Assembly: GCA_902539295.1 (NCBI GenBank)
Contig: CACBIM010000001.1
Coordinates: forward strand, 62,001 to 126,000
Source of the DNA: an uncultured SAR116 cluster alpha proteobacterium
Lineage (GTDB): Bacteria; Pseudomonadota; Alphaproteobacteria; Puniceispirillales; GCA-002684695
Length of the DNA stretch: 64,000 nt
Direction: 5' to 3'
Part shown: one piece after another, positions 20,979 to 53,255 of the stretch
How the letters are laid out: each line of letters opens with the position of its first letter
Position numbering within the stretch: the first letter of the stretch is position 1
The notes under the pieces: generated by a model
Databases searched by the model: none
Told to the model about the DNA's origin: nothing
Seen by the model: the letters and a program-made list of their open reading frames with translations, nothing else
Made by a program: the position numbers and the translations under genes

Positions 20979-21068
20979 GGGCGTTTGGCAGAGTGGTTGA
21001 ATGCGACGGTCTTGAAAACCGTTAAGGGTGAAAGCCCTTCCAGGGTTCGAATCCCTGAGCGCCCGCCA
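20979..21068 (+). tRNA. tRNA-Ser(UGA)
   Basis: A 90-base tRNA with a long variable arm. The acceptor stem GGGCGTT pairs with AGCGCCC, discriminator G and encoded CCA at 21066-21068. The anticodon loop CTTGAAA carries TGA between the GACGGT and ACCGTT strands. The variable arm is AAGGGTGAAAGCCCTT, and the T arm is CCAGGGTTCGAATCCCTG. The class II shape and anticodon give serine. Its 3' end is the attachment site of the island that follows. Confidence 0.97.
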
Positions 21069-21069
21069 T
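21054..21069 (+). repeat. Left attachment site (attL) in tRNA-Ser
   Basis: CCTGAGCGCCCGCCAT, the last bases of the tRNA gene plus one base. The same 16 bases recur at 53240-53255. The integrase gene begins 135 bases inside, which is the usual layout for tRNA-targeting tyrosine integrases. Confidence 0.85.
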
Positions 21070-21204: not shown

Positions 21205-22395
21205 ATGGGGGTTGAAATGAATCAACTAACAGATATTAAGATAAAAAAAATTTCTCAAAAAGGCAGATATCCTGATGGGTTAGGCTTATTTTTAAACATT
21301 GGAAAGACTCAAAATAAAAATTGGACTTTTAAATATACTATAAATTATAAAACCCATGAAATGGGTTTAGGTCCCTACCCTTTGATAAGTCTTAAAGATG
21401 CAAGAAACAAAAGAGACAAACTAAGAAGTGATTTAGCAAAAGGAATTAATCCTCTCGAAGAGAATAGAAAACTAAAGATAATAAAAAATCAAAACCTATC
21501 ATTTAGAGAAATAGCTACGCAGTATATTGAAGAGTTTAAAGTTGAGTGGAAAAATCCAAAGCATATTCAACAATGGAGCAATACTCTAATAACGTATACC
21601 TATCCTATAATTGGCAATTTAAAGACAAGTGATATTTCAACTGAACATATATTAAAAATTTTAAAGCCAATTTGGACAACAAAGAAAGAAACAGCCTCTA
21701 GAGTCCGTCAGAGGATAGAGAGAGTCATGTTTTATGCAAGAGCTAAAGATTATTACTCAGGGGAGAACCCTGCCTCTTTGAAGGGTAAATTAGAGTTTTT
21801 ACTGCCTAAGCAAAATCAAATGCCTAAACATCATCCTGCTATGGATTATAAGGATTTACCTAGTTTTATGACAGAATTAAGAAAGCACAGGGTAAATTCA
21901 TCACTTGCCCTTCAACTATTAATACTCACCGCGTGTAGAACGAGTGAAATAATAAAAGCCCAATGGAATGAGGTTAATTTCAATGATAGAGTTTGGATAA
22001 TACCCAAAGAAAGAACTAAAACTTCAATAGTTCACAGAGTTCCTTTGTCTGAGGGATCTATATATATTTTACATGAAATGAAATTAAGACGGTCAAGCAA
22101 CTATATTTTTGAAGGATCTATCAAAGGGAGACATTTATCCGATAATGCAATGTTAACTTTTTTAAAGAGAAATTTTCCAAATATCGGAGCTGTTCCTCAT
22201 GGCTTTAGATCTTCTTTTAGAGATTGGGCAGAAACAAGAAATGCATATAGTCACAGAGCTATGGAATATTGCTTAGGTCATGCAGTCAAAAATAAAACTG
22301 AAGCAGCTTATCAAAGAAATGATTTGTTAGAACAAAGGAAAGTAATTTTGAACCATTGGAACAATTATAATATAAAAGATGAACATGGAGTCTAA
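21205..22395 (+). CDS. Tyrosine-recombinase integrase of the island
   Basis: 396 residues. The N-terminal DUF4102-like arm-binding domain has RYPDGLGLFL and MGLGPYPLISLKDAR. A SAM-like core-binding domain follows (about 97-195), then the catalytic domain with Arg245 (LTACRTSEI), His332-x-x-Arg335 (PHGFRSSFRDWAE), His359 (LGHA) and nucleophile Tyr369. This is the P4/CP4-type integrase layout that targets tRNA 3' ends. ATGs lie at 21205 and 21217; either is possible. All catalytic residues are intact, so the enzyme should be active. The gene follows tRNA-Ser on the same strand. Confidence 0.93.
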   Translation: MGVEMNQLTDIKIKKISQKGRYPDGLGLFLNIGKTQNKNWTFKYTINYKTHEMGLGPYPLISLKDARNKRDKLRSDLAKGINPLEENRKLKIIKNQNLSFREIATQYIEEFKVEWKNPKHIQQWSNTLITYTYPIIGNLKTSDISTEHILKILKPIWTTKKETASRVRQRIERVMFYARAKDYYSGENPASLKGKLEFLLPKQNQMPKHHPAMDYKDLPSFMTELRKHRVNSSLALQLLILTACRTSEIIKAQWNEVNFNDRVWIIPKERTKTSIVHRVPLSEGSIYILHEMKLRRSSNYIFEGSIKGRHLSDNAMLTFLKRNFPNIGAVPHGFRSSFRDWAETRNAYSHRAMEYCLGHAVKNKTEAAYQRNDLLEQRKVILNHWNNYNIKDEHGV

Positions 22396-25636: not shown

Positions 25637-26392
25637 TTAAAGATTCCAAATTTCTTGATCATGAAAACCACAGTTTTGAAAATTACTTTCAATGCAAATC
25701 CTGCTTAGTTTTTTTGCTTGAATTACTTCTTTGTAGTTAGTGCTCTTAAAATGATTTATTATTTTTCTGCTGTTTTCTTCAAGTATTTCATCATTAATAC
25801 CTATTTTTTGTGCTGAAATAGACCACATTAATGCATCTGAAAGAAATTTTTTCTCAGGTAGTGTAAAAAGTATATTTGATATGTAAATCATTGCAGAAGA
25901 ATTACCTAAAGCTGCATATTTTCTATATATGCGATATGAATATTTGCATATTTGTTTATTTTCACATAAGAGATCAGTAGATCTTATATCTCTTGTTCTT
26001 TCAAAAACATCTTCTATTAATTTATGGTGAAGTGATGCTAAATCGAACCATTTTAACGCTTCAACGAAATCAACATTTACTCCATAGCCTAATTGATAGA
26101 TAATGCCTAGGTTGTATGCAGCAACACGATTTCCCTGTTCTGCTGATAATCTTGTCCACTTTTCGGCCAAAATATCATTTTCTTGTACTCCAAGTCCGTC
26201 TCTATACATTACCCCTAATGAATATTGGGCCCAATCATCCCCTTTTTCAGCAAGAGGCTCCCAAACTTGAAAAGCTTTTAAGTATTCACCTTTAGCCGCA
26301 TAATCATAACCTCTGTTGAGTTGTTCGTTTGCATTTGAATTGTATATAAATGTAAATAAAATTATAAAAATACTTCCAAAAATTAATCTCAT
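25637..26392 (-). CDS. Exported Sel1-repeat protein
   Basis: 251 residues with a signal peptide (about 21 residues, ends NSNAN) and three to four Sel1 repeats (AEKGDDWAQYSLGVMYRDGLGV, shown here as its start only) followed by a less regular C-terminal half with several Cys. Its start codon lies 35 bases after a copy of the island promoter motif (26427-26451). It is downstream of rpoC on the same strand, separated by 69 bases. Confidence 0.83.
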   Translation of the reverse strand: MRLIFGSIFIILFTFIYNSNANEQLNRGYDYAAKGEYLKAFQVWEPLAEKGDDWAQYSLGVMYRDGLGVQENDILAEKWTRLSAEQGNRVAAYNLGIIYQLGYGVNVDFVEALKWFDLASLHHKLIEDVFERTRDIRSTDLLCENKQICKYSYRIYRKYAALGNSSAMIYISNILFTLPEKKFLSDALMWSISAQKIGINDEILEENSRKIINHFKSTNYKEVIQAKKLSRICIESNFQNCGFHDQEIWNL

Positions 26393-26426: not shown

Positions 26427-26451
26427 GACGAATAAAATTTTAGAATTATTG
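26427..26451 (-). promoter_or_regulatory. Putative island sigma promoter upstream of the exported Sel1 gene
   Basis: On the minus strand: CAATAA, 15 bases, CGTC (then TTAA). The CGTC ends 35 bases before the start codon at 26392. The same block with the same spacing occurs before rpoC and three other genes. Confidence 0.7.
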
Positions 26452-26461
26452 AAAAATAAAT

Positions 26462-29400
26462 TTAAATAATTTCAGAAACTATTTTTGAAATATTATTTTC
26501 TTCAGAATTTTTATTTTCTTCTATAAGAACATTTTTTCTTTCTAATAGAATTTTTTTATCATTATCATTTGCAAGTTTTCTTAGCTTATTAATTGAACTT
26601 CCAGTCCCAGCAGGTATTAATTTTCCAACAATGATATTTTCTTTTAAACCATCAAGGGTATCAATTTTTCCAGAAACAGCAGCCTCTGTTAAAATTTTTG
26701 TTGTTTCTTGAAATGATGCAGCTGAGATGAATGATTTAGTTTGTAATGATGCTTTTGATATACCTAGTAAAATTGGTCTTGCTTTGGCGGGTTTTAAGTT
26801 TGCTTTTTTTAATTCATCGTTAATTTGATCAAAATGCTTTGTATAAACTTGCTCCCCAGTAAAAAATTTTGAATCTCCAATATCATATACTTCGCTTTGA
26901 TGAAGCATCTGTCTTACAATAATTTCAATATGCTTATCATCAATTTTTACTCCTTGAAGTCTATAAACTTCTTGAACTTCTTTAATTAAATATTCTGCAA
27001 GTTTTTCAGGACCTAATATTCTCAAATAATCATGAGGATTTGGCGTGCCTTTTTTAGAAATTATTTCACCTTTTGAAACGTAGTCACCTTCATTTACTTT
27101 TAACTCTCTATCTCTAATGAGAATTTCAATATTTTCTTTGGTTTTATCAGTAGGTTTAATTATTATTTTTCTTTTATTATTTTCTGATGAAAGCTCTATG
27201 TATCCGTCATCTTCGGCAATAATTGACGCAATCATTGGAACTCTAGCTTCAAAGATTTTTTCTACTTTTGGTAACCCTGAAACAATATCGTCATTTTCAG
27301 ATGCAGCGCCACCAATTTGGAATGTACGCATTGTTAACTGAGTTCCCGGTTCTCCAAGCGACTGAGCTGCAATAACACCTACTGCTTCTCCTATATTGAC
27401 TGGTGTTCCTCTAGCTAGATCTCTTCCATAACATTTTTTGCAGATACCTACTTTAGCTTCACATAATAATGGTGATCTAACTAAAATTTCATTTAATGTA
27501 GAATTTTTTATTAAATCAACAATATCCTCATCGATAATTGTTCCCTCAGAGCAAATTTCAATATTTTTTGAAATATCAATAACCTTTTCTGCAGCAGTCC
27601 TGCCCAAAACTCTTTCAAACAATGGCTCAATTTCATTTGTTCCATCAGTTATTGCTTTCAAAGAAATTGACTTTTTAGTTTCACAATCATCAATTGTAAT
27701 TACACAATCTTGAGCAACCTCAACTAACCTTCTGGTTAAATAACCAGATGTTGCAGTTTTGAGTGCGGTATCAACCAAACCTTTTCTAGCTCCATGAGTT
27801 GAATTAAAATATTCTAAGACATTAAGTCCTTCTTTAAATGAAGAGATAATAGGCGTTTCAATAATTTTGCCTGATGGCTTTGACATTAGGCCTCTCATTC
27901 CTGCAAGTTGACTGATTTGAGCTTCTGAACCTCTTGCGCCAGAGTCAGACATTATCCATACAGAATTCACATCTTCCCCTTGTTTAGTAGACTCTAACTC
28001 AGATATTATTTCATTCTTGATGTCATCTGTTGCTTTTAACCAAGAGTGCTTTACTTTTTCATGTTTTTCTTCTTCAGAGATTAAACCTTCAAGATACTTA
28101 TGTTGAACTTCATTTACTTGTTTATTTGTCTCTTTTACTAATTGTGCTTTTTTTGAAGGAGTTTTTAAGTCATTAAAACTAAATGATAGTCCAGATGAAC
28201 AAGCTTCGTTAAATCCTAAAGACATCATTTTGTCTGCAAATATTACAGTATCTTTTTGACCGCAATGTCGATAGATATAATCCAAAACCTTTGAGACTTC
28301 TTTCTTGTTCATAAGCTTATTTATGATATCAAAATTAAAATAAGAGCTTTCTGGCAAAATCTTTGATAATTTTACCCTGCCGGCAGTAGTTTTAATAATT
28401 TTATTGATTTTACTGCCATCACTATTGAGATATTCTATTCTTACTCTGATTTTAGAGTGTAGAGAGATAACTTTGTTATTTAACGCTATAAGAACTTCAT
28501 CTCTATTAGAGAATACCATTCCCTCACCTTTCTCATTTTCTTTTTCCATGGTCATAAAATATAAGCCAAGTATCATATCTTGAGATGGAACTATGATAGG
28601 CTTTCCATTAGCTGGTGATAAAATATTATTCGTTGACATCATCAATACTCTTGCCTCTAGCTGTGCCTCAATAGATAAAGGTACATGAACTGCCATTTGA
28701 TCACCGTCAAAATCAGCATTGAAAGCGGTACAGACTAAAGGATGTAATCTGATAGCCTTGCCCTCAACTAAAATTGGTTCAAAAGCTTGAACACCAAGTC
28801 TATGTAAAGTTGGCGCCCTGTTTAATAGAACTGGGTGTTCTCTTATAACTTCTTCTAAAATGCCCCAAACATCTGGTATTTCTCTTTCAATCATTCGTTT
28901 AGCAGCTTTTGTTGTTGCTGCAATCCCATGAAATTTTAATTTTCCAGCTATAAATGGCTTAAATAGTTCAAGAGCCATTTTTTTTGGTAGGCCACATTGA
29001 TGTAATTTTAAATTTGGACCAGCAACTATTACTGATCTTCCAGAATAGTCTACTCTTTTTCCAAGTAAATTTTGTCTAAATCTACCTTGCTTTCCTTTCA
29101 GCATGTCTGATAAAGATTTTAGAGGTCTGTTATTCACACCTGTAATAACTTTACCTCTTCGACCATTATCAAATAACGCATCAACAGACTCTTGAAGCAT
29201 TCTTTTTTCATTTCGCACTATTATATCAGGAGCATTGAGTTCAATTAATTTTTTCAATCTGTTATTTCTATTTATAACCCTTCTATAAAGGTCGTTTAAA
29301 TCTGAAGTAGCAAATTTACCACCATCTAATGGAACCAATGGCCTTAACTCAGGTGGTATTACTGGAATAACATTAAAAATCATCCATTCGGGTCTGTTAT

Positions 29401-30094
29401 TCGATTGGATAAATGATTCAATTAGCTTTAGTTTTTTTACTAATTTCTTTCTTCTGATTTCAGATTTATTTTGTTTTAAATCACTGTCAACTTTTTCTCT
29501 CTCTTCTTCGAGATTAATATTAGACAAAAGATACTGTACTGCTTCTGCTCCAATCATAGCTTTGAATGAATCTTCACCAAATTCTTCTAAGCTGTTATAG
29601 TAATCCTCCTCGGACAAAAGTTGACCTATTTTAAGATCTGTTAAGCCGGGGTCTAAAATTATAAAATTTTCAAAATATAAAACTTTTTCAAGGTCCTTTA
29701 ATGTCATGTCTAAAAGTAAGCCAATTCTTGAAGGCAATGATTTTAGGAACCAGACGTGAGCAACAGGAGAGGCTAATTCAATATGTCCCAGTCTATCTCT
29801 TCTGACTTTAGATAAAGTTACTTCTACACCGCATTTTTCACAAACAATGCCTTTAAATTTCATTCTTTTATATTTGCCGCAAAGACATTCATAATCCCTA
29901 ACTGGACCAAAAATTCTTGAGCAAAAAAGCCCGTCTCTTTCAGGTTTGAAAGTTCTGTAATTTATAGTTTCTGGTTTTTTTATTTCACCAAAGGACCATG
30001 ACTTAATTATTTGTGGTGATGCTATTGTTACTTTTATTTGATCAAAACTATCTGGTCTTTTATCTTGAGAAAAAGAATTTAAAAGATCATTCAT
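26462..30094 (-). CDS. rpoC: RNA polymerase subunit beta' without trigger-loop insertion, island-borne
   Basis: 1210 residues. All core beta' parts are present: N-terminal zinc ribbon Cys70, 72, 85 and 88; active-site NADFDGD with Asp461, 463 and 465; bridge-helix region SDSGARGS to YLTRR (about 717-790); second zinc site Cys804, 878, 885 and 888; trigger loop from [19 protein letters not shown] (913-932). Relatives in Proteobacteria have a large insertion (SI3, about 190 residues) after GGAAS; here the chain runs straight into [19 protein letters not shown]. That accounts for the length (E. coli 1407). Overall sequence is proteobacterial, not firmicute. rpoB is not upstream; instead come small unknown genes. 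AGGAGA lies before ATG 30094 and the island promoter motif at 30186. It is probably an extra, specialised beta', but a relocated single copy cannot be excluded. Confidence 0.95.
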
Positions 30095-30185: not shown

Positions 30186-30210
30186 GACGAATAGAAATTA
30201 GTTATTATTG
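30186..30210 (-). promoter_or_regulatory. Putative island sigma promoter upstream of rpoC
   Basis: On the minus strand: CAATAA, 15 bases, CGTC. It differs from the other copies after CGTC (AAAC rather than TTA/TAA), and the leader to the rpoC start codon is longer (92 bases against 35-36). Confidence 0.65.
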
Positions 30211-30219
30211 AAAAAATAA

Positions 30220-30669
30220 TTAAATATTAATTTTATTTATATTTAGACTTTGATAAAAATTATGAACTTCAACTTCATAAATGATAAATTGTGCGCTAAT
30301 TAATTCTTTTGGAGCATTTAATAGAAGCATTGTTTGTTCAAAATATATATTATTTTTTGAATAGACGCCTTTACCAATCATGCCCTGTTTATTATTCCAA
30401 ACTTGTAATGATTTAATCTTGTCTGAAGTTGTTTTCGTTATCTTTGATACTAATGTTACAGAACAAAAATCTTTATCTAGTTCTGCATAAGTGTATTTGC
30501 CATCTTTTATAAGTTCTAATTTTTCATTGTTTAATTTGGAAACATTATAACCCATATCTTTAGCTACTTTTTCAATTTCAATACAGTTATAGTCAATTTT
30601 ATTTTCTGCAAAACTGTTTGTATTAATTAACATTATTATTATTAAAATAAGTGATATATTTTTAAACAT
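30220..30669 (-). CDS. Small exported protein, function unknown
   Basis: 149 residues with a signal peptide (ends NSFAE). The mature part is about 128 residues with two Cys and mixed beta/alpha character. It overlaps the DUF4258 gene by 8 bases and so is translated from the same message, driven by the motif at 31039. No family recognised. Confidence 0.65.
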   Translation of the reverse strand: MFKNISLILIIIMLINTNSFAENKIDYNCIEIEKVAKDMGYNVSKLNNEKLELIKDGKYTYAELDKDFCSVTLVSKITKTTSDKIKSLQVWNNKQGMIGKGVYSKNNIYFEQTMLLLNAPKELISAQFIIYEVEVHNFYQSLNINKINI

Positions 30670-31003
30670 GACTGCCCCCTGCTCTTTTATTTTGATAACG
30701 TTTTTGAGTAAATTTTTTCGATATTTTATAACGACAGTTTTTTCGGTATGTTGTTAGGATCGTTCCATTCTTAACTATAACAGTTATGTTATAAATCTCT
30801 TCTGATTGCTGCGGATGAATTAACCTTCCTTTAACTAATGATTTAATTTTATTATTTGAAATGAAATATACGTAAGCACCTTTGGAGTATTTTTCCTCTC
30901 CAAATTGCAAGATTAAATCTAAGATATCGAGTTTAATTCCTCTTTGCTGTGACCTAGTTAAAGCATGAGGAACCAGCAAGAAGTTTTTTATATAATATTT
31001 CAC
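30662..31003 (-). CDS. DUF4258-domain protein
   Basis: 113 residues. HALTRSQQRGI at the start, a central Y.F.S...I..LV.G, and ITVIVKNGTILTTYRK near residue 75 match the small DUF4258 fold (RelE/BrnT-like in shape; some members sit in toxin-antitoxin loci). The C-terminus is strongly basic, fitting RNA or DNA binding. Its start lies 36 bases after the island promoter motif. The overlapping partner is exported, so this does not look like a simple toxin-antitoxin pair. Confidence 0.7.
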   Translation of the reverse strand: MKYYIKNFLLVPHALTRSQQRGIKLDILDLILQFGEEKYSKGAYVYFISNNKIKSLVKGRLIHPQQSEEIYNITVIVKNGTILTTYRKNCRYKISKKFTQKRYQNKRAGGSHV

Positions 31004-31038: not shown

Positions 31039-31063
31039 GACGATGAAAATTTCATCTTTATTG
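31039..31063 (-). promoter_or_regulatory. Putative island sigma promoter upstream of the DUF4258 gene
   Basis: On the minus strand: CAATAA, 15 bases, CGTC then TAAT. CGTC ends 36 bases before the start at 31003. It faces away from the plus-strand copy at 31097-31121, giving a divergent pair in a 152-base gap. Confidence 0.7.
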
Positions 31064-31096
31064 AGAATTTGAAAATTATTATTTCAAATTTTTTTT

Positions 31097-31121
31097 CAAT
31101 AATTTTGATTTCTACTTCGTC
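31097..31121 (+). promoter_or_regulatory. Putative island sigma promoter upstream of the 31156 gene
   Basis: CAATAA at 31097-31102, 15 bases, CGTC at 31118-31121 followed by TTAT. The start codon is 35 bases on, with GGAG before it. Confidence 0.72.
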
Positions 31122-31155: not shown

Positions 31156-31482
31156 ATGCTAAAAATTAAATTCTTAACACCATATTTTTTATTAATAATG
31201 ATTATTTTAAATTTTCAATTATTGTCCCAATCTAATGGTGATTTTCTAAAAAATTTCTTTAGACATATTGATTATTTAGTAACAGATGTTCCTATTGAAA
31301 GAAAACTTGACTTCCTTAATGCGAATTATTCTTCATTCTCAGATGAGATGATTTGCAATCAATCTAATCTATTAAAATTTTATCCTGAATTAATTGAATA
31401 TAAAAATGAAGCAAAAAGGCGTGGCCTAACATGTTTTGGCTTTAATTTTAGTACAGTCTACTTCTACGCATCTTTAATGTAG
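31156..31482 (+). CDS. Small exported or membrane-anchored protein with SDE...RGLxC motif
   Basis: 108 residues. The N-terminal hydrophobic segment (about 8-25) is a signal peptide or anchor. Residues 53-90 hold a motif shared with four other island proteins: FSDEMIC, then a spacer ending in EAKRRGLTC. The two Cys could form a disulfide outside the cytoplasm. Strong SD (GGAG) and the promoter motif 35 bases upstream. Closest relative in the window is the next gene. No known family. Confidence 0.68.
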   Translation: MLKIKFLTPYFLLIMIILNFQLLSQSNGDFLKNFFRHIDYLVTDVPIERKLDFLNANYSSFSDEMICNQSNLLKFYPELIEYKNEAKRRGLTCFGFNFSTVYFYASLM

Positions 31483-31493
31483 TTAAAAAAATT

Positions 31494-31518
31494 CAATAAT
31501 TTCAAATTTTAATACGTC
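31494..31518 (+). promoter_or_regulatory. Putative island sigma promoter upstream of the 31553 gene and sigma factor
   Basis: CAATAA at 31494-31499, 15 bases, CGTC at 31515-31518 followed by TTAT. The start codon is 35 bases on. As the sigma and anti-sigma genes follow with gaps of 7 and 4 bases, this promoter could also drive them, giving autoregulation. Confidence 0.72.
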
Positions 31519-31552: not shown

Positions 31553-31918
31553 ATGCTTAATATTAGAAATCTTACAACATACATTTTTACATTTTCACTA
31601 ATGCTTGTTTTGTTTACTTTATTACATTCTACAAAAAATAACATTGTACATAATATGATTAAAGAAATTCAGCTTATACTTCCAAAGGAAAGTATCCATC
31701 AGGAGAATAACTATATTGATATTGACTATGGTATTTTTTCTGATGAAATGATTTGTGACAAAGTAGCTAGCATAGACTTTTATCCAGAACTAAGTGGTTT
31801 TGGTGAAGAAGCTAATAGACGTGGAATAAAGTGCTACTACAAAACTGTAGGATACTATTCAACCAATAATTCTAAAGGATTTGTCTCTGAAATAGAGCTT
31901 CCTGTCAGTAAACCATAG
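31553..31918 (+). CDS. Small exported or membrane-anchored protein with SDE...RGIxC motif, paralogue of its neighbour
   Basis: 121 residues with an N-terminal hydrophobic helix (about 9-26). FSDEMIC and EANRRGIKC lie in the same arrangement as in the gene at 31156, so the two are paralogues. AAGGAG lies before the start. It is placed directly ahead of the sigma factor gene, a spot often held by a target or a signal protein of the sigma system; role unknown. Confidence 0.68.
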   Translation: MLNIRNLTTYIFTFSLMLVLFTLLHSTKNNIVHNMIKEIQLILPKESIHQENNYIDIDYGIFSDEMICDKVASIDFYPELSGFGEEANRRGIKCYYKTVGYYSTNNSKGFVSEIELPVSKP

Positions 31919-31925
31919 AATAATT

Positions 31926-32993
31926 ATGTGTAATCAAACTCATTTGTTTTTGACTAATTTCATGATAGAAAATTCATATATATACTATTGGATAAAATAT
32001 ATTATGCATCTTACGAATGAGCAGATTAGTAAGACTTACTCAATTATTGAGTCAGCATTGAATTATCTTTTTAAAGATTATAAAAATTCAAGTTTGGTTC
32101 AAAAAAATGATCTTTCCGATATATTGCAAAACACCATGCTCAGAATTCTCAAACAAAAAGAAAACTTTGATGATATTAAAAATTTTAAAGCATGGTGTTT
32201 TAATGCAGCTCGCTGGGAATTAAATTCTTTAATTAAATCTAGAAATAAAAAAATAAATGATTTGGATGGATTTGATGTTTTGAATACATCTATTCAATTA
32301 TATAACGAACTAATAAATATCAAAGACATATATAAAATTAGTGATTATATAATCTTGGATGATGGTTACTGTGTCTTAAACAAAAGCGCTCAATCATTTG
32401 ATGCAAATCAATTGTCAAATACTACCCTCAAAGTTTTATACTCTGTAAATAAAAATAAAGATATTCCAGAAATCAATGGTCTTGATACAGTATCAAAGGT
32501 TCATGATAGATTGAAAGAGGCAGGTTTAAGTCAGGAAATTGATTACATTTTTGTATTAGATGGAGAGATAGGCAGGGCTAAGGTTATGAGTTTACTTAGA
32601 TGGGATGGAATTTCATTAAACTCATTTGATGAAAAGCAACTAAGTTTACTCGCTGAAAAACTTATTAAGAACAAAAAAAATACAATGAAAATTTTAAGTA
32701 TTGAAACTTCTATTTCAAGCAATAATGATGCTGATCAAGATAGTACGCTTGGTGATACTTTAGAAAATAAAAATTTGTTTGGCGAAAACCCAATATCATC
32801 CTTAGAAAAAATTCAGTTTATAGATTGTTTTGAAAAATTAGATGCCATTAAGAGAAAGATTTTAACTCTTCACATAGGTGGTTTAAAAACAGAAGAAATT
32901 AGTAAAGAAATTGAAAAACCCAGAGGCACTGTTGGTGACCATTTAGCAAAGGCTAAAATGCAAATGTATGACTGTATAAAGGAATTGGATTAA
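31926..32993 (+). CDS. ECF-like sigma-70 family factor with long insert between regions 2 and 4
   Basis: 355 residues from the first ATG; ATG 32004 (330 residues, MHLTNEQISK) may be the true start, as nothing before it looks conserved. Region 2 (about residues 55-105) shows the ECF pattern DILQNTMLRILK, then KAWCFNAARWEL and a basic end. Region 4 is at the C-terminus (about 305-352: FEKLDAIKRKILTLHI, GLKTEEISKEI, GTVGDHLAKAK), a normal helix-turn-helix. About 190 residues, far more than the usual linker, lie between and may be a sensing or anti-sigma-binding domain. The anti-sigma gene starts 4 bases after the stop. Likely target is the motif CAATAA-N15-CGTC found near five genes here. Confidence 0.85.
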   Translation: MCNQTHLFLTNFMIENSYIYYWIKYIMHLTNEQISKTYSIIESALNYLFKDYKNSSLVQKNDLSDILQNTMLRILKQKENFDDIKNFKAWCFNAARWELNSLIKSRNKKINDLDGFDVLNTSIQLYNELINIKDIYKISDYIILDDGYCVLNKSAQSFDANQLSNTTLKVLYSVNKNKDIPEINGLDTVSKVHDRLKEAGLSQEIDYIFVLDGEIGRAKVMSLLRWDGISLNSFDEKQLSLLAEKLIKNKKNTMKILSIETSISSNNDADQDSTLGDTLENKNLFGENPISSLEKIQFIDCFEKLDAIKRKILTLHIGGLKTEEISKEIEKPRGTVGDHLAKAKMQMYDCIKELD

Positions 32994-32997
32994 CAGG

Positions 32998-33792
32998 ATG
33001 GATAAGAAAATTACAGATGCAGAAATAGCTCAATATGTCTCTGGTGAATTATCAGAACTTGATGCAGAAAGAATTAGAAAAGCAGCTAAGTTAGATAAAG
33101 AAATTTCTTTAAAGATACATAAAATGCAAGAATTAGATAGAATTCTTGAAGAAGATGCAATTAAAAATTATCCAATTCCAAATGAGTTTTTAAATAAAGT
33201 AAAAATAGAGTTAAATTCTCGTTCTTCAGAAAAAAATTCAGAGAGTAAAGCTTCATTAATATCTTGGTTTTTAAAATTTATGACTACAGGATTTGGTGGT
33301 GGTGCACTAGCTGGTGGCCTTGCTATATTTATAATCTTTTTTCAAACACCTCAAATGATTTTCAGAAGTGTTGATGATAGTAATTTAAATGAGTTAGATA
33401 AAGAAGAACCAGATGGTAATTATAATTTATTATCTGAAATTGATAATAATGATGGCTGGAATATATATAAATCACTTATGTTTAGAGTTGAAAACAAACA
33501 GCAAAAAAATTCACTTTTAAATGGATCAAATATTACTGTTGGTGAAAATATTTTGATTAATTTTGTTTTCTTTAAAGATGAAAACAGAGTTACTATGTCA
33601 TTTAATGACCTAGATGTTAAAGATTTTAAAATTTATAATAAAGGCGATAAGCTTAGTATTGAAAAGACAATAAGATCCGTTGATGATAATATATTTAAAT
33701 TCTCCATAGATAGTAAATGGTTTGATAAATCAAACGATAAAGAATTAAATTTTGAAAAATATAATTTTGAATTAAAAATTCAAAAACAGTAA
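32998..33792 (+). CDS. Membrane-spanning anti-sigma factor
   Basis: 264 residues. The N-terminal part (1-45: ITDAEIAQYVSGELSE, LDKEI) resembles the cytosolic helical domain of anti-sigma factors, without the zinc-binding HxxxCxxC. One membrane helix with a Gly-rich start is at about 97-117. A periplasmic domain of about 145 residues follows (NILINFVFF, F.....F.S), which may sense a signal. Coupled to the sigma gene by a 4-base gap. The assignment rests on gene pairing and topology. Confidence 0.75.
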   Translation: MDKKITDAEIAQYVSGELSELDAERIRKAAKLDKEISLKIHKMQELDRILEEDAIKNYPIPNEFLNKVKIELNSRSSEKNSESKASLISWFLKFMTTGFGGGALAGGLAIFIIFFQTPQMIFRSVDDSNLNELDKEEPDGNYNLLSEIDNNDGWNIYKSLMFRVENKQQKNSLLNGSNITVGENILINFVFFKDENRVTMSFNDLDVKDFKIYNKGDKLSIEKTIRSVDDNIFKFSIDSKWFDKSNDKELNFEKYNFELKIQKQ

Positions 33793-33795
33793 ATC

Positions 33796-34806
33796 TTAAA
33801 AAGAAAAATTTCCAATTAAATTACTAATTTCTTGAGGTGTTTGCTCTTCATTAGTTCTTTTTATCACTTTTATTCTTGTTTCTTTGAGAACTTTTTCTAT
33901 CTGCTTGTCTTTTGAATGATTTATTGCATTTATTAGTTCTTCAAGATAAGGACTATTTTTACCATCACCATCTCTAGATTTTTGACCCTTAATAGTAGAA
34001 AATCCAATTATCGTATTACTCCAAATATTATTCATAGATAATCTGATATTGGGTTTTTTAAAATTTGAATTATCAAAAATATTTTCTCTACATGCATCTA
34101 AAATAAATATCTTTATGGCTTTATTAGAAGCATCTGAAATATTTGAAAATAATTCATCTGCATTTTGCATTTCATATTTAATATCATCTTCTGAGTTTAT
34201 TATTGCATCAATTGGAGCTATAAAGTTATTGTTCCCACTTTGTAATCCATGTCCTGCAAAATAGAAAAATATTACTTCTAGTTCTACATTAGAATATAAG
34301 TCATTTTCAAAACTCTTTAGAGCATCTCTTAATTGTTCAAAATTTAAGTTTGTTTCTTTTTTAACGTCAAAACCATACTCTTTAAGAGTGCTCTCCAATA
34401 TATTTACATCGTTAGCAGGATTTTTAAGTCTAGGCATATATCTATATTTTGAGTTTCCAATTAAAAGCGCAGCTCTTTTAGAAGAACCTAAGGGCTTATT
34501 TTTTGATATATTGTCGTTATTAATAGTAAGTGTTTTGGGTAGTGATGGCGGGGTTACATTGCATAAAATTCCCCTATTGTCTCTAGCTTCAATAACATAT
34601 TCTAAATTATCATAAGTATCCCAAACAATTAAGCCTGTGTCTGTTTTGAATTGTGCTTTATTGCAAACCTCTTCATCTGAATATTCTGATAAAGATTTTT
34701 CTAAATTTTTATTATTTGTTGTTGAAAGTAAAATTTGTTCATCGTTAGTTGAGCAAGAACTGACAAAAATTATTATGGAAAAAATAAAAAAAATACGAGA
34801 CATCAA
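33796..34806 (-). CDS. Lipoprotein caspase-like peptidase (C14) with SDE...RGIxC motif
   Basis: 336 residues. Lipobox FVSSC gives a lipid-bound Cys18. Residues 41-82 carry the island's cysteine motif (YSDEEVC ... NRGILC). The caspase p20-like domain runs from about 110 (KRAALLIGNSKY) with catalytic His186 (YFAGHGLQSG) and Cys239 (FILDACRENI). It is therefore predicted to be an active metacaspase-type protease anchored outside the inner membrane. The gene converges on the anti-sigma gene. A role in cleaving the anti-sigma periplasmic domain is possible but is a guess. Confidence 0.85.
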   Translation of the reverse strand: MMSRIFFIFSIIIFVSSCSTNDEQILLSTTNNKNLEKSLSEYSDEEVCNKAQFKTDTGLIVWDTYDNLEYVIEARDNRGILCNVTPPSLPKTLTINNDNISKNKPLGSSKRAALLIGNSKYRYMPRLKNPANDVNILESTLKEYGFDVKKETNLNFEQLRDALKSFENDLYSNVELEVIFFYFAGHGLQSGNNNFIAPIDAIINSEDDIKYEMQNADELFSNISDASNKAIKIFILDACRENIFDNSNFKKPNIRLSMNNIWSNTIIGFSTIKGQKSRDGDGKNSPYLEELINAINHSKDKQIEKVLKETRIKVIKRTNEEQTPQEISNLIGNFSF

Positions 34807-36066: not shown

Positions 36067-37032
36067 TTAAAAGTCTAAAGTTCCTTGAGTATTAGTTCCA
36101 TCTATTTTTTTTGAGCTAACTATATTTTTATCAAAACTTTCTAAAAAAAGCTCTAAATTATCTTCTAATAGAAAAGAGCATGCTTTTTTTTCTTTAATAA
36201 GTTTTTTATTTCCTTCTGCAAATCCATTTAAATAGGCTTCCTCAGGAAAATCAAGACAAACTAAATTACGGTTTTGCTTAATAGAGTGTTCAACAGTATG
36301 CATAGTCCCACCTTTTATAGCAGTCTCAATAACAAAAATTATATCACTAATGCCACTTTGAATTCTGTCTCTATCTACAAAATTATATTTAGTTGGTTTC
36401 GTTCCTATAAAATACTCTGTAATTAATAATCCATTTTTTTCAATTAATTCATCAGCTATAAATTTGCTTGATGATGGAAAAATCATATCAAGACCGTGAG
36501 CTAAAACGCCAATACCAATTCCTTGCTCGCTAACACATCCCTTGTGTGCATCAGCGTCACATCCAGATGCTAAACCACTAACAACTGTCGTTGAAAGTTT
36601 AGCTAGATCAGAACCTATTTTAAATGATGCATTTAAACCGTATTCTGAGGGTTCCCTTTTTCCTATGACTGCAATGCATCTCTCGCTATTCAGAGCTTCA
36701 ACGTTTCCTTTGGCAAACAAAATCAAAGGTGGATTATCTATTGATTTAATCCTTTTAGGAAAGTCATCACAATTTATGGTTAAAATTTTATGGCCTAAGT
36801 CTAGAGATTTATTAATTATTAAATTTGCTTTTTCAAAACAATCTTTAATTTGATCTTTTGAAACTTCTGGAAATTTAATACCTTTTTCAGAGTTCAATTT
36901 TATTTTATTATATAAGTCATCTTCATTTTGAATATCTTCATTAACTGTTTTTAAGAAATTAAGAGCTTTTTTATTTCCTACTTTTGGAATGCACAATAAT
37001 GATATTATTATTTTATCATAAATTTTTATCAT
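36067..37032 (-). CDS. DprA/Smf-like protein of a putative defence operon
   Basis: Rossmann-like DprA (SLOG superfamily) domain: AVIGKREPSEYGL, STTVVSGLASGCDADAHKG, GIGVLAHGLDMIFPSSS and SDIIFVIETAIKGGTMHTVEHSIKQ (given here in pieces). Housekeeping DprA loads RecA on incoming DNA; here the gene is the last of an operon with a PRTase and a RecQ-like helicase, suggesting a role as nucleotide- or DNA-binding sensor in defence. A longer frame starts at 37047, but ATG 37032 overlaps the PRTase stop as ATGA, the usual sign of coupling. 321 residues. Confidence 0.82.
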   Translation of the reverse strand: MIKIYDKIIISLLCIPKVGNKKALNFLKTVNEDIQNEDDLYNKIKLNSEKGIKFPEVSKDQIKDCFEKANLIINKSLDLGHKILTINCDDFPKRIKSIDNPPLILFAKGNVEALNSERCIAVIGKREPSEYGLNASFKIGSDLAKLSTTVVSGLASGCDADAHKGCVSEQGIGIGVLAHGLDMIFPSSSKFIADELIEKNGLLITEYFIGTKPTKYNFVDRDRIQSGISDIIFVIETAIKGGTMHTVEHSIKQNRNLVCLDFPEEAYLNGFAEGNKKLIKEKKACSFLLEDNLELFLESFDKNIVSSKKIDGTNTQGTLDF

Positions 37033-37850
37033 TGAATTGTTTTCCAAATAGCAAATTTCACAACACTTTTCGCACCCTCTTCAATATCAAAAGGTTTTTT
37101 TAAAATTTCGCTGCAAGCATCTAGTGAATTGCCAGATGTCACAACATCATCAATTAATAGAACATCCTTATTTTTGAAAATATCAATATAATTTGGTTCA
37201 ATTGAATCAAAATGAACCTTTTTTGATCTATCACTACCCTTCATCTTCAATTGTTGAATGGTATTTTTCCTAATTAAGCAAGAAGAGCCATCAATTCTAT
37301 CCATTTTTGCAAGGTCTTTGGTTACCTTTACTATAGTACTTGCGTTATTTCCTTTAGAATGAGAAGGAACACAACACAAAACAATATTTTTTTTGATAAT
37401 TTTATCTAAATAGTTTGTAACTTTTATAATGAGGTTCTGATCATTTGAGTATTTGAAGGCGCGTGCAGTTTTAGTGCTTTTAACAGTATTTTTATCAGAT
37501 GTTTTCCAATTGTCTTTTTTTGTATAATAATCAATAAAATAGCACTCCGTTTCTTCTGAGTATTCTAATTTATCTTTGTTATTAAAAAAGTTTAAAGGAT
37601 TATTATTGTTATTTTCCTGAATTTTAATTTTAGAAATTAGAGAGCCGGAATAATATTCATTTTTTTTTGAAACAAAATTAATTAATATTTTATATCCTTT
37701 TTGAACTTCAAATTTACTAGACTTATGGTTAACTTTCTCGATAACTTCTCCATTGTCGCTAAGAACTTTTAATTCTTTCCAATCCTCTGGATTGCCGTAT
37801 TTTCCAGTATCTTCTTTGATATCTATGATTGTAACTTCTTTATTAATCAT
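37029..37850 (-). CDS. ComF-like phosphoribosyltransferase of a putative defence operon
   Basis: 273 residues. The C-terminal half holds the type I PRTase PRPP loop VLLIDDVVTSGNSL near 226-240 and a CCVPSHSKG segment typical of ComF-like proteins. The N-terminal 100 residues look like a beta-rich OB-type domain and are not part of ComF. PRTases of this kind paired with DprA and helicases occur in predicted phage-defence loci, where they may make or use a modified nucleotide. Its stop overlaps the DprA start. Confidence 0.8.
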   Translation of the reverse strand: MINKEVTIIDIKEDTGKYGNPEDWKELKVLSDNGEVIEKVNHKSSKFEVQKGYKILINFVSKKNEYYSGSLISKIKIQENNNNNPLNFFNNKDKLEYSEETECYFIDYYTKKDNWKTSDKNTVKSTKTARAFKYSNDQNLIIKVTNYLDKIIKKNIVLCCVPSHSKGNNASTIVKVTKDLAKMDRIDGSSCLIRKNTIQQLKMKGSDRSKKVHFDSIEPNYIDIFKNKDVLLIDDVVTSGNSLDACSEILKKPFDIEEGAKSVVKFAIWKTIQ

Positions 37851-37912
37851 TATTTAGAACCTTTGGTGTAAAATGAGTTAATAAAAATTTGATATACTAA
37901 ACATATGAAATT

Positions 37913-38347
37913 TTAAAAAAATAGGATATAAATTGAATTAAATGCTAATAATAAAAGTGTAATAGAAACAAATGTCTTTAAAGTTCTATAAATAGACGAT
38001 TGATTAATTTCTATTTCATTTAATCTTTTACTAAAGTCTGAAATAGTATTTGATAAATCATCACTATTCTTTTTAAGATGATCTTTAATCTCACTTTCTA
38101 ATTTTGAAATATAATTTCTTAAAACGGTATTATTTTTTTCTGCTTCATTTGGTAATTTTTCAATTTTTTCAACTAATTTCTTAAATCTTAATTCAATAGA
38201 ATTATAGTTTTTTTCAATATTTTTTGGTAATTCATTCAACTCATCATGTAGAACTTGAAATTGCTCTAAATAATCAGCAATTTTTTCAATTTTTTTGCCA
38301 TTTTTTTCTAATTTTTTGATTGTATCTTCAGTTTTTGATAAATCCAT
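37913..38347 (-). CDS. Coiled-coil protein with C-terminal membrane helix
   Basis: 144 residues. Residues 1-115 are a predicted long coiled coil rich in Lys, Glu and Asn; 121-143 is a hydrophobic helix (FVSITLLLLAFNSIYILFF), so the protein is tail-anchored with the coil in the cytoplasm. It lies between the helicase (12 bases) and the PRTase (62 bases) on the same strand. As part of the operon it may tether the complex to the membrane or act as effector; no family known to me. Confidence 0.68.
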   Translation of the reverse strand: MDLSKTEDTIKKLEKNGKKIEKIADYLEQFQVLHDELNELPKNIEKNYNSIELRFKKLVEKIEKLPNEAEKNNTVLRNYISKLESEIKDHLKKNSDDLSNTISDFSKRLNEIEINQSSIYRTLKTFVSITLLLLAFNSIYILFF

Positions 38348-38359
38348 AAAAGAAACCCT

Positions 38360-41300
38360 TTAAAAAACCTTATCTAACCGATTATTAATATTTTTAATAT
38401 ATGTCAAAGCGGTATGGTTGTCTTGTAAATAACTATGAATTAAAATTAACTCATCTATGTTATCTATTTTTGGATCAAGAACTTCTGAAAATTTAAGTTT
38501 TTCTTTTTCGTCAAGCAAGGACGTAAATTTCAAAAGATTTTCGAGTGTATTTTTCCATGTTTTTGTTTCTTGCTTCGCGACAGAAATAAATGAAACAAGC
38601 CTTCCTTTTCCGTCTTGATCATCAAAATTGTTTGTTATCAATCTGCACATAGAACTAAGTAAATCTAACCATGGGTTATTACTATAACTTTCTAACCAAC
38701 GCGCTAAAGAATACATTATTTCTTCAATTTGATCATGAGGTATTAATTTATTATCTTTTATTAATATCTCGTTAAGGTGTTTAGGGGCTAACTCATAAGT
38801 ACTTTCTAAAAATTTTCCAATATCAGTTGTCTGGCTATCTACCCTGAAAAAAGCATCAATTTTTCTTTTAAATTCATCAGGACCACTTTCTTTATAGTCT
38901 AAACAACAATCATAGAGTGTTTTTAGAGATTGTCGCCTATTGTAAAGAAAATTTTCATGGTTCCATTGTAAAAGATATTTAATAAATTCTTCTTTTTTGT
39001 TCTTTATATCATTTGAATTAAGAATATTTTCTATTTCTTCTATTTGAATTTTATTTTCAGAAATACTAAGTTGGTACTTTTCTATATGTTTAATTAAGTT
39101 TTTTGCAATTTCATTATCACTTAATCTACTGTATTTAACTTGATAATTTTTTTGGAAAAAATCATTTACTGTCCAGTCATTCACAATCCCTAACTGAAAT
39201 AATCTATATATATTTTTCTCAACTTTATTATTTGTTTCTGATTCTGTATCTGTTCCCTTGTAAATACTAGCCGAGCCTTCTTTATTTCTATAAAGATCTT
39301 CTAAAATATTAAGGCAACCAGATAATTCATCCTCTATAGTATTATCATTAGCTATAAAATATATCTGTCGTTTAAAATCCCCTTTTTTATCTTGATATCC
39401 TTTTTGATAAATCATTAATTCTTGAGTTGTAGTTTTTTTATTAGTGATTTCTCTTGGAATAGCTTCTTTTTCCTCAGAAAATAAAACTATGTTCTCAGCA
39501 TTATTACCATCTCTGCCAGTTCTTCCTGCTTCTTGATAAAGCGCTTCCATTGACTCTGGCATAGCAAAATGAACTGAGAATCTAATATTTTTTTTATTAA
39601 TACCCATTCCAAAAGCCTTGGTTGCAAACATTAATTGAATAGTATTATCTTTAAATTCCTTTTGGACCTTTTTTTTATAAATTTCAAACTCATCGCTCCT
39701 TTTTTTAAATTTATTATTGTTAGAAATCCATTTTTCAGGAGCTTTGCCGGAAAACAAACCTGTTTTAATATTTGGAAAAACTCTTTTTATCGTTTGTTCT
39801 AAATTAAAACTGCCATATTCATTGTTTACAAAAGGAGAGAAAACTATTCCTGCAGAATTATTTGAGAGATATGATTTTTTAATCATTTTGAACACAGTTT
39901 CTTCGAGCTTTTTGAATTTATTATTTCCAGCATTAATCACATTAAAATTTAATTCTTTACGGCTGTTATCCATCTTATAAACAACATCTGTATCTTTTAA
40001 TTTAAGTTCTACCTTAATATCCTCTAAGACTGCTAGAGATGCTGTCGCTGTCAAAGAGATAACTGGAGTATTAATTTTAATGACTGAATATAAAGTATTT
40101 GCTAGTGCTAGGTATGAAGTCCTAAAACTGTGCCCCCATTCAGAAAGGCAGTGCACTTCATCAATAACTATATAAGAAATAAGATTTCTGTTAGATAAAA
40201 TTACTATTTCTTTTCTAAAACTTTCTACTTGAAATCTTTCAGGGGTTATAAATAAAAATTGTGTTTTTCCAGACCTGATTTTTTCATAAATTAACTCTCT
40301 TTCCTGTGGATCTTGGCCACCCATAATAAATTCTGAACGACCTGAAAATCCAAGTTTATCTAATTCGTCAACATGGTCACGCATTAGAGCTTGAATTGGG
40401 CAAATAACAATGCAGCAGCCTAATTGAAGGCTTGATGTTAATTGAAAACAAAGTGACTTTCCTCCCCCAGTAGGTAAAAGTCCTAGTGTATTTCCTTGAT
40501 CAAAAATTTTATTCAAAATTGATAATTGACCATCTTTAAAGTCTGCATATCCAAAAAATTGAAACAAAAGTTTATTTAACGAATTGTATTTTTCTGAAAA
40601 AGGAAGGGATTTAAATCTTTTGACTATGTCAAGTTTGTCAGGTTTAGTTTTTAATATACTATGGTCTTTTTGAATTTCTTTAGTTAATTTTCCATCTTTT
40701 GATCGCCACTTATATAAATTTACGTAACTATTTCTGACTTTTATATAATTACTTTTATTGTCATCAAATCTTTTGAATAATTTAAAATCAATAACAAGTT
40801 CATTGCTATTTTCTTTAGCAGGCGCATTTGTAAGCTTAATATTAATTTTTGGTTTTTCTAATTTTTCTTCACCTAATTGAGCAATAGGTAACATCCATTC
40901 GAATAAATCATCACAAGCAAGTTTTGCCCAATTAAAACTAGACACAACATCTGAATGAACGATTAAATTCCATGATTTAGAATTTAATTTCAAAAAACCT
41001 GATTTTATTAATTCTAATAGAACAACTTGAAATCTACAAATTGCAGTAGCTGTATAATGATAGCTTTCTTTCAAATATTGCTTTTCATCAAAAACTTTCT
41101 TTAATCGGTTAATATCTTTATTTTTTTTCAAAAAATCATAAATTATACTTATTTTTGCGTAGTAATCTTTATCTCGTAATCTAACTGATTTTGAACTAAT
41201 TCTTACAGTGTTTATATCAATATTGCCTAAAGCCTCATCTCTTACTTTATCTATTTCCTTTTGATTTTCATCGGCATGTTGCGCACCGTCAATTTCAATA

Positions 41301-41869
41301 ACTAAATCAACTCTAGGAATGAAAAAATCAACCCTCGATAAAGGATTAATTTCTTTAGAAATTTGAGGACAAAAATTTACAATCTCATATTCTGGAATAA
41401 TTAAATTGGTAACAAAAGAGTAATCCTCTAAGTCTTTTGATAAGTTTCTATAAAATAATAAAGCTGGATTATCATTTACATCATTAGAATTTCCGAGAAT
41501 AGTTTTTTCCGACCATTCTGGTTGTTGATCATTAATAAGATGCAGTAAATCATTTTTATTATAAGTATCATTTGGAAAATGTTTTTTAAGTTGATTAATT
41601 AAATAATGAGAAGGTGAAGATGGGCATCCTCTAAATAACAATTTTTCAGTTATATCAACAAAAAAAGGTATATTTGATATTATTTCTTCATCTTCAGGTA
41701 AATTTTCAATATAGAAATTTAATTCTGTACTATAAAATCCACATGTGAACTCATCAGAATGCTCTATAAATTTTTTTGTATCTAATTCTGTATAATAATC
41801 TTTTGATAGATCAGACCCAAAATCATCTATTATTGACTGCCAAGTATTGTCTCTTTTTAATTTTTGCAT
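38360..41869 (-). CDS. Large RecQ-like helicase with N-terminal DUF559/Vsr-like nuclease domain
   Basis: 1169 residues. Around 180-215 is a restriction-endonuclease-like core: VDFFIPRVDLVIEIDG with Asp181 and Glu192/Asp194, then QHADENQKEIDKVRDEAL. The SF2 RecQ-type motor runs from about 440: motif I LLPTGGGKS (464-472), DEVH box 570-573, SATA-type LTATAS, and motif VI QEAGRTGRDG. The last 300 residues are unassigned. It should unwind DNA 3' to 5' and may cut it. First gene of a four-gene minus-strand operon (helicase, coiled-coil membrane protein, PRTase, DprA), which I read as an anti-phage system. Confidence 0.88.
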   Translation of the reverse strand: MQKLKRDNTWQSIIDDFGSDLSKDYYTELDTKKFIEHSDEFTCGFYSTELNFYIENLPEDEEIISNIPFFVDITEKLLFRGCPSSPSHYLINQLKKHFPNDTYNKNDLLHLINDQQPEWSEKTILGNSNDVNDNPALLFYRNLSKDLEDYSFVTNLIIPEYEIVNFCPQISKEINPLSRVDFFIPRVDLVIEIDGAQHADENQKEIDKVRDEALGNIDINTVRISSKSVRLRDKDYYAKISIIYDFLKKNKDINRLKKVFDEKQYLKESYHYTATAICRFQVVLLELIKSGFLKLNSKSWNLIVHSDVVSSFNWAKLACDDLFEWMLPIAQLGEEKLEKPKINIKLTNAPAKENSNELVIDFKLFKRFDDNKSNYIKVRNSYVNLYKWRSKDGKLTKEIQKDHSILKTKPDKLDIVKRFKSLPFSEKYNSLNKLLFQFFGYADFKDGQLSILNKIFDQGNTLGLLPTGGGKSLCFQLTSSLQLGCCIVICPIQALMRDHVDELDKLGFSGRSEFIMGGQDPQERELIYEKIRSGKTQFLFITPERFQVESFRKEIVILSNRNLISYIVIDEVHCLSEWGHSFRTSYLALANTLYSVIKINTPVISLTATASLAVLEDIKVELKLKDTDVVYKMDNSRKELNFNVINAGNNKFKKLEETVFKMIKKSYLSNNSAGIVFSPFVNNEYGSFNLEQTIKRVFPNIKTGLFSGKAPEKWISNNNKFKKRSDEFEIYKKKVQKEFKDNTIQLMFATKAFGMGINKKNIRFSVHFAMPESMEALYQEAGRTGRDGNNAENIVLFSEEKEAIPREITNKKTTTQELMIYQKGYQDKKGDFKRQIYFIANDNTIEDELSGCLNILEDLYRNKEGSASIYKGTDTESETNNKVEKNIYRLFQLGIVNDWTVNDFFQKNYQVKYSRLSDNEIAKNLIKHIEKYQLSISENKIQIEEIENILNSNDIKNKKEEFIKYLLQWNHENFLYNRRQSLKTLYDCCLDYKESGPDEFKRKIDAFFRVDSQTTDIGKFLESTYELAPKHLNEILIKDNKLIPHDQIEEIMYSLARWLESYSNNPWLDLLSSMCRLITNNFDDQDGKGRLVSFISVAKQETKTWKNTLENLLKFTSLLDEKEKLKFSEVLDPKIDNIDELILIHSYLQDNHTALTYIKNINNRLDKVF

Positions 41870-50025: not shown

Positions 50026-50841
50026 TTAGTTTATTTTTTTTTGTGATAGCCAATCATTAACTTCATTACTCATTATTTCTAAAACTAAAGCATCTGTGAT
50101 TTTCACTTCTTCAGACATGTCATAACAAGTTACTCTTGCAAAGCCATCTTCTAAATTAATTTTATTGACTTCGTATTTACTCTTACCAGTTTTATCTTCA
50201 GGATGAGTTAAAACTTTAGGTTCTTGCATTTCAACATCTTTGAAAGCCATTATAATCTTATCAACAACTTTCTGTTTATCTTTATAGCAATCTTCTATGT
50301 CTTCATCATAATAGATAAACCCAACTACACCACCTATTGGAAAAGGTATTTTCATATCATTTTGATTAAACACAATTTCAACTGTGTCATACATTTTAAA
50401 TGAATGATGTCCATCAAATCTAACATGCAAAAATTTATCACTTAAATGACTGTAATTATTAGTCATGTTTCTAACAATTTCACTCGGAGTAAAATGTAAA
50501 TCCACATCATTTCCAATATTAATGCCTTCAATTGGAAATAGAAAATTATCATCTTTTACTTTAATGATACTCTCATTTTCTTTAACAAAATTATCTGGAT
50601 TACAATCAAGATTTCTTTCTTTTACAATTTGTACAAATTGAATTAAATCTGGATCATCTGTCAACTGACCATCATATTTATCCCATGCCTTGTAACAAAT
50701 AATTTCATCTGACCATTCTTTATAATAATCGTCTTCTTCTGTTTCTAATGTTTGTGAAGATTGTACAGTCAAATTATTAGTACATGAAGTACCAATAAAA
50801 GATATTAATATTACCGCATAAATATAGAAAAGATTTTTCAT
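50026..50841 (-). CDS. Lipoprotein with SDE...RNLxC motif
   Basis: 271 residues. Lipobox FIGTSC gives lipid-bound Cys20. Residues 44-79 hold the island cysteine motif (WSDEIIC ... ERNLDC). The rest (about 120-271) is a beta-rich domain with VEIVFN and a VTCYDMSEEVKITD segment. Function unknown. It is first of a two-gene operon with the MORN-type protein. Confidence 0.68.
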   Translation of the reverse strand: MKNLFYIYAVILISFIGTSCTNNLTVQSSQTLETEEDDYYKEWSDEIICYKAWDKYDGQLTDDPDLIQFVQIVKERNLDCNPDNFVKENESIIKVKDDNFLFPIEGINIGNDVDLHFTPSEIVRNMTNNYSHLSDKFLHVRFDGHHSFKMYDTVEIVFNQNDMKIPFPIGGVVGFIYYDEDIEDCYKDKQKVVDKIIMAFKDVEMQEPKVLTHPEDKTGKSKYEVNKINLEDGFARVTCYDMSEEVKITDALVLEIMSNEVNDWLSQKKIN

Positions 50842-53239: not shown

Positions 53240-53255
53240 CCTGAGCGCCCGCCAT
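53240..53255 (+). repeat. Right attachment site (attR) of the island
   Basis: CCTGAGCGCCCGCCAT, identical to 16 bases at the tRNA-Ser 3' end (21054-21069), in the same orientation and about 32 kb away. Confidence 0.85.

Follow-up and report, generated by a model that had tools for sequence, protein, structure and literature searches.

An island-borne ECF-like sigma factor carrying an adhesin-type domain, and its predicted promoter link to a beta' subunit that lacks SI3

The 64,000-nucleotide stretch analysed here (the window), from an uncultured SAR116 cluster alphaproteobacterium, contains an island on which an ECF-like sigma factor has, between its region 2 and its linker, a domain homologous to part of a giant secreted adhesin, and on which one and the same promoter-like motif stands before the sigma operon and before a second gene for beta', the product of which is without SI3. 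The reading that we favour, with a probability of roughly 55%, is that of an island-borne and self-amplifying ECF sigma/anti-sigma switch with a regulon that includes the SI3-less beta' and with the insert as an extra surface of the sigma. A bolder version, in which a mobile switch replaces two parts of RNA polymerase as the sigma with the adhesin domain turns on the SI3-less beta', is possible and is offered tentatively. In the textbook view there is one bacterial core RNA polymerase and only sigma changes; if the bolder version is true, a second form of the core enzyme would come together with a new promoter specificity. The presence of a common motif before the sigma operon and the altered beta' gene makes such a regulated alternative core directly testable. 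The island beta' is, in addition, a natural deletion of SI3, a segment whose role has mainly been examined in engineered mutants, and the inserted domain is one that a giant secreted adhesin has in common with a cytosolic transcription factor.

The sigma factor gene (31926..32993, + strand) specifies 355 amino acids, though the start may be at Met27. As noted in the initial annotation, it has region 2 and region 4 signatures at its two ends: with Pfam, region 2 (Sigma70_r2, residues 61-105; 32106..32240, +) is matched at E 4e-4 and 20.5 bits, which is under the cut-off of 24 bits, and region 4 (Sigma70_r4_2, residues 297-347; 32814..32966, +) at E 2e-7 and 30.8 bits, over the cut-off of 25.7. 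The sigma70-ECF model TIGR02937 covers region 2 as well, and gives the intact protein 51.4 bits against a cut-off of 42.9; the best subfamily match, TIGR02989 (Sig-70_gvs1), is under its own cut-off. The count of about 190 extra residues between the two regions was right as a spacing, which is 191, but about 50 of these are ordinary linker (residues 251-296; 32676..32813, +) with a sigma-3.2-like motif (DSTLGDTLENKN) that aligns to the RpoD chain 6wmr_Z of a solved structure, and the true insert has about 138 amino acids. No region 3 match was given by Pfam in this sigma, and the notion that the insert is a sigma-3 was rejected on that account.

How ordinary is the protein when the insert is taken away? 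The TIGR02937 score rises to 59.0 bits in a single contiguous stretch, and the short linker expected of an ECF factor, absent from the intact sigma with its 191 residues, is then seen at about 53, though ECF linkers, which thread the active-site cleft, are so variable in length that length is no strict criterion (PMC6411747). Among 72,556 plasmids the intact sigma had no tblastn match at E<=0.01; without its insert it matched 107 records at E<=10, the best at 4e-4, with 90 of the 107 aligning over at least 80% of the query and nearly all of the matches listed being annotated as sigma factors. The long insert is, then, real, and what its removal restores is a clean ECF scaffold that aligns with ordinary sigmas from end to end. 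In common with the ECF factors of TIGR02937 the island sigma has sigma-2, sigma-4_2, the sigma-3.2-like linker, an adjoining membrane partner and a motif before its own operon, and it is unlike them in the domain of about 138 amino acids between sigma-2 and the linker. The draft genome (2.16 Mb, 68 contigs, 88% complete) yielded no Sigma70_r4_2 protein but this one, and no close relative of it was found in 385 genomes of the class or 136 of the order. Searches for related loci with the sigma or its candidate anti-sigma also found none, a weak negative since tblastn misses even the known adhesin match.

What is the insert? By sequence comparison, residues ~113-250 (32262..32675, +) are homologous to a domain of an RTX-repeat adhesin of 3506 amino acids, encoded on a different contig of this genome, with a blastp E of 2e-16, a phmmer E of 3e-18 and a Smith-Waterman z of about 30 against shuffles; the adhesin is extracellular, whereas the copy in the sigma is cytosolic and shares just 32% identity with it. 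Genes of type I secretion type come after the adhesin gene, and the same adhesin is present in a sister species of the genus. The domain occurs twice in the adhesin, and as the stretch that holds both copies is an identical duplicate they count as one event; it is an insertion there too, for one of the adjoining adhesin repeats appears to be without it. In this giant adhesin gene (G000:C26:1-14000) there is a tandem duplication of 1362 bp, at least 1185 bp of it identical. A more distant SAR116 adhesin, from genome G409, has a diverged version of the domain, found with a z of 8.8 from the adhesin side and, at a z of about 1, below detection from the sigma side. Within the genome that is our subject the domain is in the sigma and the adhesin only, which disposed of a mobile in-frame repeat element as the source of the insert. 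An intein was set aside as there is no Pfam match inside the insert, and derivation from SI3 as there is no similarity.

Homologues with the same insert, to which the initial annotation had looked, were sought widely, and neither the 136 order genomes nor profile searches of samples of 385 class and 399 phylum genomes yielded another sigma that has it; over these three sets the insert profile returned adhesins plus chance-level matches only. One of the latter, in G620, is at 0.004 over 44 residues, and a candidate in G469 (0.002) was rejected on reading as an HtpG-like frame. Pattern scans of collections of genome contigs and viral contigs gave 97 stretches, the single real one among them being a SAR116 adhesin (L048). 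The GC content of the insert, 0.29, equals that of the sigma flanks (0.27) and not that of the adhesin domain (0.46), from which it follows that the capture is probably old and that an assembly chimera is unlikely. Since these adhesins are where the domain is found, it is presumably at home there, and the simplest account of the sigma copy is the capture of such a domain.

In larger sigmas sigma-3 comes between sigma-2 and the 3.2 linker, and the insert stands at that very site, which may be why it is tolerated. To our knowledge no ECF sigma has a domain at this site. None is reported in a review of the ECF groups (PMC8999054). AlphaFold models of the sigma and of the domain were poor, with a mean pLDDT of 42 and 43.5, and only a strand-helix-strand stretch at residues ~170-215 reached moderate confidence. 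Could the insert be just a passenger, captured once by illegitimate recombination, folding alone and doing nothing specific, in what would otherwise be an ordinary autoregulated ECF sigma? This deserves consideration even if it is on the unlikely side: a single sigma carries the insert, the junction tolerates extra domains, the homologue belongs to an extracellular protein for which no task in the cytosol suggests itself, and a test of whether positions conserved in the adhesins are kept in the sigma copy gave P 0.07 to 0.46. However, W-D-G, D-Y-I and further positions have been kept, in a frame that is still open, while about two thirds of the residues changed, which suggests that the insert must at least fold. 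In the reading that we favour the adhesin-type domain would have entered where sigma-2 meets the sigma-3.2 linker to become, most likely, an extra binding or regulatory surface with the sigma core intact, and this role is the weakest part of the mechanism proposed.

The island is of about 32 kb, with an integrase gene at 21205, and has at one end a 16-bp repeat, CCTGAGCGCCCGCCAT, at the 3' end of a tRNA-Ser gene (21054..21069, +), and at the other the second copy of that repeat (53240..53255, +). The first gene of the sigma operon (31156..31482, +) encodes a small protein with a hydrophobic N-terminus, and the second (31553..31918, +), a paralogue of the first with 33% identity, ends 7 bp before the sigma gene. 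Elsewhere on the island, at 36067-41869 on the minus strand, are genes for a DprA-like protein (ShosA/PsyrA), a phosphoribosyltransferase (ShosT-like) and a DpdF/PsyrT-like helicase, probably an anti-phage defence module; because of these ShosA/ShosT-like and DpdF/PsyrT-like genes, a defence setting is possible for the sigma/beta' switch.

A first scan, for the AAC-N-CGT motifs usual for ECF factors, was unproductive, and it was by eye, in the regions upstream of operon genes 1 and 2 and of rpoC, that another motif was spotted and then searched for. TCAATAA-N15-CGTC has five copies within 5.1 kb of the island, every one of them in promoter position, upstream of a correctly oriented gene. On the plus strand it precedes operon gene 1 by 34 bp (31096..31121, as TCAATAAT-N14-CGTC) and operon gene 2, at 31553, also by 34 bp (31493..31518). 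On the minus strand it is 35 bp before the start of a DUF4258-like gene at 30662..31003 (-) (motif at 31039..31064, TCAATAAA), 91 bp before that of the island rpoC (30186..30211) and 34 bp before that of a gene at 25637..26392 (-) whose product was assigned by eye as a Sel1-type repeat protein (26427..26452). Thus the distance to the start codon is 34-35 bp in four of the five and 91 bp in the other, and the gap from TCAAT to CGTC is fixed at 17 nt. Four exact copies were observed in the window, against 0.00 expected from 100 shuffles, the fifth having one mismatch, and with the two blocks at other spacings, from 8 to 23, there was no copy in the window. A relaxed form of the motif has seven matches in the whole draft genome, five in the 5.1-kb stretch and two that are not promoter-positioned, and zero to two in each of four relatives of the genus. 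Two-block searches of this kind have served to mine ECF promoters before (PMC3817407).

By what is the motif read? The simplest reading is that it is the promoter of the island sigma, in which case the DUF4258-like and Sel1-type genes would be targets. A gene for a small protein with a signal-like N-terminus (30220..30669, -) overlaps the DUF4258-like gene and is probably in one operon with it. An autoregulatory promoter before the sigma's own operon is also predicted, the motif being there and well placed. The -35 block of the usual ECF promoter is of AAC type and that of the island motif is different, and for this reason it has to be considered that the five copies are operators of some other regulator, or are read by another sigma, with the regulon of the island sigma lying elsewhere. 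That seems unlikely, given the fixed gap between the blocks and the constancy of the start-codon distance, the place of the motif before the sigma's own operon and the finding of no second Sigma70_r4_2 protein in the draft genome.

The gene that follows the sigma gene after four bases (32998..33792, +) encodes a candidate membrane anti-sigma of 264 amino acids, with a cytosolic-type N-terminus and one hydrophobic segment at residues 97-115 (33286-33342), so the pairing with a zinc-less anti-sigma that had been proposed from the start has held up as to layout: there is no cysteine, and the Hx3Cx2C zinc motif is absent. An adjoining gene, a cytosolic N-terminus and a transmembrane segment are the layout of class I anti-sigmas, and about 52% of the membrane-bound members of that class are without the zinc motif (PMC7406223). 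Searches of Pfam, NCBIfam, PDB sequences and the plasmid records gave no match to an anti-sigma domain in the partner, and as no family model matches it is from position and layout that its function is argued; that it is an anti-sigma, and unremarkable in being zinc-less, is plausible. With the zinc-less class I anti-sigmas of RseA and RskA type it has in common a cytosolic N-terminal stretch, a single hydrophobic segment, an extracytoplasmic part and a gene adjoining that of the sigma; unlike them it has no recognisable family match, its periplasmic part included.

Surface adhesins are a class of ligand-binding proteins, and the homologous domain is in one of them, which raises the idea that the insert is a cytosolic sensor, for a small molecule, glycan or ion, that gates the sigma beside the anti-sigma or in its place. 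At least 26 ECF groups have regulatory N- or C-terminal extensions (PMC8999054), and in ECF41 (SnoaL-like), ECF42 (TPR) and ECF238 (CorE), as in the island sigma, an extra domain is added to an ECF scaffold, the C-terminal extensions of ECF41 and CorE being those to which a sensor would be likened. However, these extensions are terminal as described there whereas that of the island sigma is internal and of adhesin type, and with a candidate anti-sigma present as well a sensor is improbable. In the self-amplifying switch that we prefer, the membrane protein from the gene 4 bp further on probably keeps the sigma inactive until a signal leads to its release, and the freed sigma would read promoters of the form TCAATAA(T)-N14/15-CGTC, the five of which would then yield more of the sigma's own operon and a few other island genes, that for the SI3-less beta' included.

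Is the island rpoC (26462..30094, -) likely to yield a working subunit? Its 1210-codon frame is open, and the product scores 1722 bits with TIGR02386, has the full domain set, NADFDGD and both zinc sites, and is 74.6% identical to the housekeeping beta', from which it differs in that exactly the 184 residues of SI3, in the trigger loop, are cleanly missing. A tree built from 14 sequences places it within its own genus, at 100/100 support and on a long branch (0.64), and this nesting and branch length argue for a fast-evolved internal duplication rather than a phage gene, the SI3-less form having arisen, on this phylogeny, within the genus. Elsewhere among the 136 order genomes no second rpoC without SI3 was seen. 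G472 has an additional rpoC that looked like a further paralogue but is probably contamination: at G472:C7:306000-325000 alphaproteobacterial-looking genes appear to be linked with rpoB/rpoC-type genes that, as judged by eye, come from a different phylum, probably Bacteroidota, and the contig is likely to be contaminated or chimeric.

Over a stretch including what we take, from knowledge of E. coli beta', to be the sigma-binding coiled-coil, 57 of 60 residues are identical to the housekeeping copy, and with the stretch so kept the island beta' should accept any sigma. A dedicated holoenzyme in which the insert touches the SI3-less beta' or occupies the room that SI3 would take, the former having been surmised in the initial annotation, is suggested by the location of both genes on the island with a common motif and by an SI3-sigma contact in cyanobacteria (PMC10120043), but it is highly improbable, as the insert is homologous to the adhesin domain and is not SI3-like, stands at the place of sigma-3 whereas an SI3 of E. 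coli type is near the secondary channel, and faces a beta' with its sigma-binding stretch almost unchanged. Of the link to rpoC, then, what stands is the level of the promoter motif, while physical contact through the insert finds no support, and the switch that we favour has the sigma tied to the island beta' by predicted transcription. Replacement of beta' would give a new core differing in SI3-dependent behaviour, be it pausing, the action of secondary-channel factors or targeting by products of phages or competitors, and the trimmed polymerase may serve to alter pausing or the response to factors, or to evade some SI3-requiring product of a phage or competitor.

There is a counterpart in actinomycetes, where rpoB is duplicated, as in the 'magic' RNA polymerase of Nonomuraea (PMC5431353). 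There and on the island a second copy of a core subunit is proposed to reprogramme transcription; unlike the Nonomuraea copy, the one in the SAR116 genome is of beta', is without SI3, is carried by a mobile island and is preceded by the motif of a sigma operon. Among open-licence literature no paper on a duplicated rpoC was found.

Convergent with the anti-sigma gene is one for a lipoprotein-type caspase (Peptidase_C14; 33796-34806, -), with no promoter motif before it. Its product is one of four secreted-type proteins that have a SDE..C...R-x-x-x-C motif near the N-terminus, the others being encoded at 31156-31482, 31553-31918 and 50026-50841, and the two of these from the start of the sigma operon are clear paralogues.
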